Assembly (NCBI GenBank): GCA_028277685.1
Contig: JANQFT010000133.1
Coordinates: forward strand, 1-32,681
Direction of reading: 5' to 3'
DNA: 32,681 nucleotides
Source of the DNA: Phycisphaeraceae bacterium
GTDB lineage: Bacteria; Planctomycetota; Phycisphaerae; Phycisphaerales; Zrk34
The translations under genes and the position numbers were made by a program. Below the pieces are notes generated by a model. That model was not told the origin of the DNA. It searched no databases and was given only the letters and a program-made list of their open reading frames with translations. This document shows positions 30,560 to 32,681 of this stretch, in pieces (the first letter of the stretch is position 1; the number at the start of each line of letters is the position of its first letter).

Positions 30560-30590
30560 TTGACTCAAGGCTGTTCTTGCCGAAAACTAT
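30560..30590 (+). promoter_or_regulatory. Promoter candidate for the anti-16S-tail RNA
   Basis: TTGACT (30560-30565) is followed by AAAACT after 17 bp or AACTAT after 19 bp. The -35 is strong, the -10 moderate. It is placed between the PAP2 terminator and the RNA below. Confidence 0.5.
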
Positions 30591-30806
30591 GTTTGTCGAC
30601 GCAAGGGGATCCGATTGGGTCGGGAAAACCTCGACATCAACCGATCAAACCAAGCGACGGCCGAGCGCCAGTCAGATACCTCCTGACCGGCGGGCGATGT
30701 ATCCGGTAAGACGTTGCCGGATGTGAAGAATTCGGCGGCTGCGGGTTGTGAATCAGCGTTGGACTGATAGCAGCAGCGCGGCGACGGCTGAAGCGGTTCT
30801 TCTAGC

Positions 30807-30822
30807 TAAGGAGGTGATCCAG
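30807..30822 (+). promoter_or_regulatory. Extended anti-anti-Shine-Dalgarno sequence
   Basis: TAAGGAGGTGATCCAG is the reverse complement of the 3' end of bacterial 16S rRNA over at least 14 nt (AAGGAGGTGATCCA) and 16 nt for a CTGGATCACCTCCTTA end. Ordinary ribosome sites pair over 4-7 nt. It ends at a GTG that opens a 10-codon frame, at ideal spacing. Confidence 0.85.
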
Positions 30823-30854
30823 TGTGTAACTGTATAGGAGGGCTGCACGCCTAA
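30822..30854 (+). CDS. Possible 10-codon reading frame after the extended SD
   Basis: GTG TGT AAC TGT ... TAA would make (M)CNCIGGLHA. The spacing from GGAGG to GTG is 7. The frame ends inside the loop of the GGGCTGCAC/GTGCAGCCC hairpin, so translation would open the left arm of that hairpin. The frame is so short that it may be chance. The other reading is that the SD-like sequence acts as a ribosome-binding RNA without translation. Confidence 0.3.
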   Translation: MCNCIGGLHA

Positions 30855-30898
30855 GCAGCTCGACGGAGACTGCAGTGCAGCCCGTCCCCAACGTAATC

Positions 30899-30934
30899 GC
30901 CCGCCTGAGTTGCGACTCGGGCGGGCATTTTTTT
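30899..30934 (+). terminator. Strong intrinsic terminator of the anti-16S-tail RNA
   Basis: GCCCGCCTGAGT and ACTCGGGCGGGC form a 12-bp stem (one G-U pair) around a TGCG loop, followed by ATTTTTTT. The winged-helix gene on the other strand ends 11 bp downstream, so it may also serve that gene on the minus strand if the purine-rich flank allows. Confidence 0.93.
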
Positions 30935-30945
30935 GCGCTCAACCT

Positions 30946-31995
30946 CTACAGCTTTTCGCCGTCGTATCGAAGAATCTGATGCCGCGGCGGAGCGAAACTC
31001 TTCTTCACTGCGGTCAGGATTTGCTTGCGCCGGGCTGTGCGTTCAGCCTCGGGCAACTGAAGTACGATGTCGTCCACATCGTGAGGACCGATACGCCATC
31101 GGCCGCACACTAGGCCATCAAACGCACCATCGATCAACAGGTACGCCAATACATCACGTTTGCCAAAGGTACGTTTCAGTTCTTCTGTATGCGACCGCAC
31201 CAACCCATCTGCTCCACTGAGGACGAACACGCTCTTGCGCGGTTTGCGGGAGCGGAGACCAACATCCTCCCGCCCGATCCAGCCATCCCCCAAACCTTCA
31301 GTACTGATCGGTTGGACCAACTGTTGTTGTTCCATCTGTTGCAGAGCTTGCCGCAATAGTCGCACCGGCAGGCGAGACCATCCTTTAAACTGCTCGAACG
31401 TAGCGAACACGTGCGCGTGCAGAAAGCGCCCCAGCACCATGCACACATCGTCGAGCTGGCGATCTGCATCGAGCGTGATGTCGGGCCATTCCGATTCGAA
31501 GGCGTACCAGCTTCGTTCCCAATCGGTTTCGGTCTGGTCTTCGTAAACCAGAAAGGCTGTCTGCAGGCGATGCAGTGCCGGCATGATGTGTTTGTTCAGC
31601 AGGCCTGTCTCTTCCTTGACTTGCCGCGGCGTCAGCGGGCCAGCTACGCAAACCGCTTCGTACACAGCCTGCTGGGTGGGCGTTGGATCGGTAAGCGGTC
31701 GGCAGAACGCGTTGGCATATTGCTGCAGATCATCAGCCAACACGTAACCCACCGTGCCTCCGACGAATCGCCCTTTCACGATGCGTCGCTCGCGACGCAG
31801 ATCTTCACTGATGGTGCTGCAGTCGAAGCTCGTGCGATGTGGCAGCGCGGGAGGCGAACCGGGATAGGCACTGGTCGTCGTCGACACCGGCTGAAGCGTA
31901 CTGAACAACTCAAGATAACCACGCTCATCCTTGCGTGTTGCAGTCAAACCTTGTCGGTTCAAACGTTCAGTCAACACTGCTTGGCAATCCGGCAT
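30946..31995 (-). CDS. Winged-helix DNA-binding protein, possibly YcaQ/HTH_42-like
   Basis: The 349-residue protein has repeated winged-helix-like segments, for example PTPTQQAVYEAVCVAGPLTPRQV then HIMPALHRLQ (about 105-145) and LPVRLLRQALQQMEQQQLVQPI (about 208-230). The last third (FGKRDVLAYLLIDGAFDGLVCGRWRIGPHDVDDIVL) has the beta-type pattern of the C-terminal domain of YcaQ/AlkX-like DNA glycosylases. The known catalytic motif of that family is not clear here, so the call is tentative and a non-enzymatic DNA-binding protein is possible. The ATG at 31995 has AAGGA ten bases before it. It follows a DEDD exonuclease gene by 25 nt, so both may serve DNA repair or processing. Confidence 0.6.
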   Translation of the reverse strand: MPDCQAVLTERLNRQGLTATRKDERGYLELFSTLQPVSTTTSAYPGSPPALPHRTSFDCSTISEDLRRERRIVKGRFVGGTVGYVLADDLQQYANAFCRPLTDPTPTQQAVYEAVCVAGPLTPRQVKEETGLLNKHIMPALHRLQTAFLVYEDQTETDWERSWYAFESEWPDITLDADRQLDDVCMVLGRFLHAHVFATFEQFKGWSRLPVRLLRQALQQMEQQQLVQPISTEGLGDGWIGREDVGLRSRKPRKSVFVLSGADGLVRSHTEELKRTFGKRDVLAYLLIDGAFDGLVCGRWRIGPHDVDDIVLQLPEAERTARRKQILTAVKKSFAPPRHQILRYDGEKL

Positions 31996-32020: not shown

Positions 32021-32681
32021 TTACCAGCCTCTAAGGCGCTCTACCACATCGCGATGCGCGGTGAAGGGATTATCCGTGAGTGAAGGCACGCGCACCGCCA
32101 ATTCATCTTCAAAAGGCGTGTCGCGCAGTTTTGCGTTGTACGCCATCGCCAGTAGCGGCTCCAGCGCGAGTACATCCTGCACGTTGTAGGCCAGCAGCGT
32201 TTCGAGTGTGTGTTGGTCGCGCGTGCGTTGGTATTCGCGCCACAGAATCACAGCAAAATAGCCATCTATATCTGCCATGTCTGTACGGCCGAGTCCGACC
32301 TGGTGCTCAATCGCTTTCAACCCGCCCTTCATTCCCACGCTACGCAGCACGTGCATCAGGTCGATGTGCGCCGCATCGATATCCACGCGCAAAAACTTCC
32401 GTAGGAATGGCACGTCAAAACTTTTGCCGTTGAAGGTAACGATCAAGTCATACTTCGCTACATCAATTTCAAATTGGTCGATGTTGACCCCATGCACGTA
32501 GTATCGCACATGTTCGCCGTTGTACATCGCGATGGTGGTCACGTGGTCGTCAAAGCCCCCAAGGCCGGTGGTTTCGATATCTAAGTAAGCGATGCTGTGG
32601 GTGAAATCCGGGAACAGTCGCCAGTGTTCGCGCGGAGGCAGGTGCTCGGCGAAGTAGTGGGCATTGCGTTGTTGGTGTTGT
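32021..32681 (-). CDS. DEDD-type 3'-5' exonuclease (RNase H-like, YprB family), 5' end off window
   Basis: The minus-strand frame is open to the right edge. It reads AYLDIETTGLGG (motif I, Asp and Glu), FNGKSFDVPFLR (motif II, Asp) and YNVQDVLALEPL (motif III, Asp), the order seen in YprB-type ribonuclease-H-like exonucleases. The missing N-terminus precedes FAEHLPPREHWRLFPDF. A start at GTG 32542, inside the domain, is rejected because motif I lies upstream of it. The gene is followed after 25 nt by the winged-helix gene. It probably trims single-stranded DNA or RNA; substrate is not decided. Confidence 0.88.
   Translation of the reverse strand, partial: QHQQRNAHYFAEHLPPREHWRLFPDFTHSIAYLDIETTGLGGFDDHVTTIAMYNGEHVRYYVHGVNIDQFEIDVAKYDLIVTFNGKSFDVPFLRKFLRVDIDAAHIDLMHVLRSVGMKGGLKAIEHQVGLGRTDMADIDGYFAVILWREYQRTRDQHTLETLLAYNVQDVLALEPLLAMAYNAKLRDTPFEDELAVRVPSLTDNPFTAHRDVVERLRGW

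Follow-up and report, generated by a model that had tools for sequence, protein, structure and literature searches.

The window analysed here, a stretch of 32,681 nucleotides from a Phycisphaeraceae bacterium (contig JANQFT010000133.1), carries an element that we read, with somewhat more confidence than doubt, as a gene for a stand-alone, structured small mRNA of the rreB/rreR type, i.e. a small mRNA with an extended Shine-Dalgarno (SD) sequence, working as proposed below. Its most likely role is that of a 30S-responsive regulatory RNA. By its sequence it appears to be a planctomycete variant of the extended-SD small mRNAs that belongs to neither of the two named families. The features of the element and of the adjoining genes are as follows.

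30560-30565, + strand: -35 box TTGACT of the element's own putative promoter (read from the sequence; TTGAC..N..GATAAT stands at the matching place in homologues)
30582-30590, + strand: probable -10 region GAAAACTAT, 16 nt past the -35 box, aligned with the GATAAT of homologues
30613-30646, + strand: 5' hairpin with a GAAAACC loop (predicted fold; homologues repeatedly have a loop of the G(A)GAACC type)
30660-30695, + strand: helix A (GCGACG.CCG ... CGGGCGATG; predicted fold, covarying in 22 homologues)
30701-30722, + strand: helix B with the GACG loop motif (6 of 7 pairs changed on both sides among homologues)
30732-30791, + strand: helix C, a two-part stem TCGGCGGC...GCGACGGCTGA (7 of 9 pairs changed on both sides among homologues)
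30808-30822, + strand: hyper-extended SD AAGGAGGTGATCCAG, a 15-nt complement of the 16S rRNA 3' tail
30822-30854, + strand: mini-ORF GTG..TAA encoding MCNCIGGLHA (10 aa), frame and stop kept in 69 of 72 homologues
30840-30883, + strand: terminal hairpin, formed in its 5' arm by the last part of the ORF (GGGCTGCAC), with an inner hairpin closed by a CGACGG loop (covariation)
30899-30934, + strand: intrinsic terminator, a 12-bp stem (30899-30926) followed by T7 (terminator scan)
30946-31995, - strand: gene for an AlkZ-like DNA glycosylase, adjoining the element (Pfam)
32021-32680, beyond the AlkZ-like gene: RNase_H_2 protein (Pfam)

The 16S rRNA complement and the mini-ORF

The string TAAGGAGGTGATCCAG is found at 30807-30822 of the window. 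The 16S rRNA genes of relatives terminate in GCGGCTGGATCACCTCCTTTCTAAGG, the exact complement of AAGGAGGTGATCCAG over 15 nt; T30807 is opposite a U, so that the pairing is confined to 30808-30822. The 16S tail of the host was taken from its relatives because the host assembly (G000: 4.3 Mb, 651 contigs, 88% complete) does not include the 16S 3' end, and the sole GGATCACCTCCTT found there is the window element. A preliminary description of this DNA had claimed a complement of at least 14 nt with a negligible probability of arising by chance, and had raised a different 16S tail in this organism as a possible objection. The match is exact over 15 nt, its chance within 338 nt is ~3e-7 by simple arithmetic, and the tails of the relatives fit it over its full length. 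A 14-mer of the complement occurs once in the host genome (0 for a reversed-pattern control) and the 11-mer AGGAGGTGATC occurs three times. The predicted duplex between the SD and the 16S tail has an energy of -28.3 kcal/mol, as compared to -10 to -13 kcal/mol for two invented ordinary SDs. An assembly remnant of a 16S gene can be excluded, as the match is just 15 nt long and its flanks are unrelated to it yet conserved in homologues. In predicted folds the accessibility of the SD (0.31) is slightly lower than in shuffled sequences (0.40), which does not support a special exposure of the SD.

The same complement had been proposed to assist 16S 3'-end processing by pairing with the precursor tail. 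In one homologue (L003) the complement indeed pairs over 20 nt, extending beyond CCTTTC, but in most homologues the pairing ends at or short of the mature 16S tail, and such a role leaves the ORF unexplained; we regard it as very improbable.

The complement ends on the first G of a GTG start codon, and the order GGAGG-TGATCCA-GTG gives a normal 7-nt spacing between GGAGG and GTG. The ORF that begins here is short, and its stop codon sits within the terminal hairpin. Among 72 homologues from Phycisphaerae, the start codon is GTG in 64 and the ORFs mostly encode 6-19 aa. Read in the frame of the ORF, 69 out of 72 homologues have their first stop at the hairpin arm and none has it earlier, as against 2 out of 70 and 3 out of 68 for the other two frames (which usually stop sooner), so the ORF is evidently kept open; among the three exceptions, L192 reflects a misplaced start codon assignment. 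The 72-sequence sample is slightly biased, since the covariance model holds a weakly conserved stop triplet, but this bias cannot account for in-frame ORFs of 9, 10, 11, 12 and 13 codons. As the frame is kept across these different lengths, the mini-ORF is very probably translated. The peptides themselves vary (e.g. MSNCIGGLLI, MIDSCTQGLRG, MLHDIGGLP, MKGGKH and MSNLSQDLKRIHDRTLRR) while the layout is constant, and the order SD-GTG-ORF was seen at nearly every locus that we read.

These observations contradict the earlier view that the RNA has no coding role, and they bear on the function first suggested for it, a non-coding sponge or decoy of 30S subunits, in which the complement would occupy the anti-SD sequence and translation would be irrelevant. 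The 15-nt complement and the structured, stand-alone nature of the RNA, on which that suggestion was built, both stand. Its non-coding part does not: the frame is conserved from start codon to hairpin stop over different ORF lengths, and a start codon is always present at a spacing of ~7 nt. A pure sponge thus seems to us quite unlikely, although binding of 30S subunits by the RNA remains likely.

Promoter, fold and terminator of the RNA

The preliminary description had presented the RNA as a stand-alone structured transcript with its own promoter and terminator, and this is borne out by the predicted fold, the terminator and the -10 boxes of homologues. In 23 out of 35 homologues (2.9 expected) a box of the form [GT]ATANT precedes the SD by ~180-240 nt; a scan of the window with the sigma-70 consensus gave no match at the promoter of the element. 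The 5' end of the RNA is inferred to lie a few nucleotides downstream of the -10 region. The window RNA (338 nt) folds far better than shuffled sequences (z = -5.4) and closes with a strong terminator; its own fold has hairpins matching the 5' domain of the homologues.

The compensatory stem changes that had been named as a check of the structure were found both in the 5' domain and in the terminal hairpin. For the 5' domain, an alignment of 22 homologues (the row of the window was left out owing to the greater divergence of its 5' sequence) has four helices with 21 pairs; these are 93.8% paired, and 15 of them show changes on both sides. None of 500 shuffles did as well, and controls with slid positions collapse. 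For the terminal hairpin, whose alignment includes the window row, 94.8% of cells are paired and 9 of 13 pairs are changed on both sides, again with 0 of 500 shuffles as good. Six clade groups were tested for pairing of the ORF with the sequence downstream of it, and in each the pairing exceeded that of shuffled sequences.

A mini-ORF followed by a hairpin and a terminator is also the order of parts in attenuators, in which the mini-ORF would control a downstream gene. This arrangement is extremely improbable here: the next gene of the window (AlkZ-like) is on the opposite strand, the downstream genes vary between homologues, and the terminator is separate from the hairpin of the ORF.

Two sequence motifs of the RNA are worth recording. 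One is ACCTCCT in the loop of helix A (30678-30684), a 7-nt mimic of the anti-SD that could pair with the SD (30809-30815); L003 has ATCACCTC at the same loop position, which could likewise mask the SD. We do not claim that the SD is generally hidden in this way, as the mimic is missing from most homologues besides the window and L003. The other is GACG(G), which occurs three times in the Phycisphaerae RNA (window positions 30701-30722, 30781-30787 and 30855-30873), twice as a hairpin loop: once in the loop of helix B, once ahead of the SD and once in the terminal loop. Such a motif may serve for contact with a protein or between loops.

Related RNAs, distribution and neighboring genes

The preliminary description knew of no RNA of this form. 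Two families share its motif, rreB of Bradyrhizobiaceae and rreR of Rhodobacter/Roseobacter, reportedly described by Hahn et al. in 2017 as extended-SD small mRNAs with ORFs of 14 aa (rreB) and 18 aa (rreR) and an RNA of 165 nt. rreB is said to co-sediment with 30S subunits and to be weakly translated, translation being impeded by the long SD and the GTG, and the stability of its transcript is said to depend on the start codon. To our knowledge, extended-SD small mRNAs have been described in some Alphaproteobacteria only. The Bradyrhizobium loci in our collection have ORFs of 14 aa (L052, MSYLKRCHLAGIAR) and the Rhodobacteraceae loci ORFs of 18 aa (MSRVILERGVGT...); going by these lengths, we take them to be rreB and rreR.

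The window RNA has the characters of this type, namely a SD of ~15 nt before the start codon, a short GTG ORF with a conserved frame and, as predicted from its sequence, a promoter and a terminator of its own. In common with rreB and rreR it is stand-alone, with a SD complementary to the whole 16S tail, a GTG and a very short ORF. It differs from them in its length (~340 nt, about twice the reported 165 nt), in its covarying 5' domain and in the phylum of its host. The planctomycete peptide is also different and unconserved: MCNCIGGLHA is unrelated to the 14-aa and 18-aa peptides; the window RNA is neither rreB nor rreR proper.

Rfam holds a related family, the Caulobacter sRNA CC2171 (RF01867), listed there as a plain sRNA. 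A scan of the window found no Rfam family at gathering score, and of the weak matches in the window only CC2171 is meaningful, through the SD. Its model scores the window RNA at 20.4 bits (E 0.029) against a cut-off of 75 bits; thus a known Rfam class, which had been named as a possible objection, was not found. In 21 close genomes the model has no match above the cut-off (several Phycisphaerae reach 30-37 bits), whereas it does score above it in members of Rhizobiales and Caulobacterales. CC2171 and the window RNA have AAGGAGGUGAUCCAGUGU and a terminal G/C hairpin in common, but the alphaproteobacterial 3' part is different, and the homology between planctomycete and alphaproteobacterial RNAs is weak outside the SD and the general layout. 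The window is far below the CC2171 cut-off and the alphaproteobacterial loci fit rreB/rreR, which places the window RNA in neither named family.

Of 298 genomes of the class, 105 have the element according to one covariance model, which was built from 15 sequences; with few exceptions they have a single copy. An exact 17-mer scan of GTDB genomes gave at least 117 stretches; the matches listed are mostly from Alphaproteobacteria and Phycisphaerales and include Krumholzibacteriota, Acidobacteriota, Myxococcota and one Nitrosomonadales bin. The mini-ORF is present at nearly all of the matches listed, and a few (L050, L118 and L220) match by chance or represent longer genes. In the rest of Planctomycetota the 17-mer is rare, and some matches show the same layout. 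The SD motif followed by a clade-specific mini-ORF is therefore found in Alphaproteobacteria, Krumholzibacteriota, Myxococcota and Acidobacteriota as well as in Planctomycetota.

The genes flanking the element are common within families and different between them, on the upstream and on the downstream side, so that the complement is constantly present beside different genes, a pattern that the preliminary description had named as support. Pfam was run on the genes of the window only, and neighbors in homologues were judged by appearance: the upstream neighbor is a PAP2 protein in the window, and that of L003 and L004 resembles it; L006, L155, L161 and others, from another family of the order, have an apparent ABC-type metal transporter permease beside the element. 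Many of the peptides carry cysteine, and a link of the element to metals is possible. Two further variants were observed. The ORFs of L015, L186, L210 and L211, all of one genus, encode 18-19 aa without cysteine (e.g. MSNLSQDL...) and are followed by a different 3' hairpin. In L017, L019, L036 and other Rhodobacteraceae the 3' region ends with CACCTCC(TTA), ~100 nt past the GTG; this sequence mimics the 16S tail and could base-pair with either the SD or the ORF stem.

The peptide, the act of translation and a proposed mechanism

If the peptide were the product, the element would be a microprotein gene for a short, often cysteine-containing peptide, with the long SD merely tuning its synthesis. 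The ORF is strictly kept and 53 of the 72 peptides have cysteine; moreover, L010 and L011 (~1380-1500) have, in the same frame and place, much longer ORFs encoding cysteine-rich peptides of 32-33 aa (MIELCTPRPGGKCCCGDSCDGNCCCGRKRIGLR). Some peptides are without cysteine, however, there are peptides of 6-7 aa (e.g. MKGGKH and MKGDKR), and the C-terminal GL[HR] follows from the sequence of the hairpin arm. Codon differences point the same way. Among Phycisphaerae ORFs of equal length, the synonymous share of single-base codon differences is 0.13-0.20 in four of five groups (0.18-0.21 expected) and 0.33 (0.21 expected) in the fifth, the group with the fewest differences, the pairwise counts being not independent. 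A share close to the neutral expectation implies that in Phycisphaerae the frame is kept and the peptide is not; purifying selection on the peptide appears to be little or none. Two groups in Alphaproteobacteria differ in this respect: the share is 0.40 (0.285 expected) for the rreR group, and for the MSHC group 0.44 (0.28 expected) in the first codons and 0.295 (0.292 expected) further on. This excess means that the peptide, or else a third-position transition bias, may count there. For the window RNA, a microprotein gene is in our judgment unlikely. The peptide is probably incidental in Planctomycetes, which suggests that translation as an event, rather than its product, is the conserved feature.

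For the small mRNA that we favor, the following mechanism can be proposed. The SD would capture 30S subunits very tightly. As the full duplex extends into the start codon, a bound 30S subunit would have to melt it partly prior to initiation, which would make initiation slow and sensitive to the number of free 30S subunits and to the accessibility of their 16S tails. An initiating ribosome would then read a few codons and terminate within the hairpin, thereby opening it. Three states may be distinguished, i.e. an RNA holding a 30S subunit, a translated RNA with the hairpin open and a free RNA with the hairpin closed, and the choice among them would set the stability or the interactions of the RNA as its output. 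A parallel is known in Bacteroidota, where the extended SD of rpsU senses ribosomes with a free 16S tail in the autoregulation of bS21 (PMC9976891). As proposed for the window RNA, extended SD-ASD pairing serves there as a sensor of accessible 16S tails; rpsU, in contrast, is an ordinary protein gene, neither a stand-alone RNA nor a mini-ORF in a hairpin.

What appears to be new here is the spread of such RNAs across phyla, a 5' RNA domain with no counterpart in Rfam and the probable conservation of the act of translation instead of the peptide. That this layout recurs in Planctomycetota, Krumholzibacteriota, Myxococcota and Acidobacteriota suggests that the device is both ancient and widespread. 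We tentatively extend the proposal, with rather more doubt than confidence, to a class of structured RNAs, spread across phyla, that would act as gauges of free 30S subunits by pairing with the complete 16S tail; translating a mini-ORF of no particular sequence, with its stop in a hairpin, would switch the state of the RNA, and the peptide would be a by-product. A frame and stop that stay fixed while the peptide drifts predict that the event of translation matters and its product does not; if this is true, bacteria would possess an RNA devoted to sensing the state of their small ribosomal subunit.
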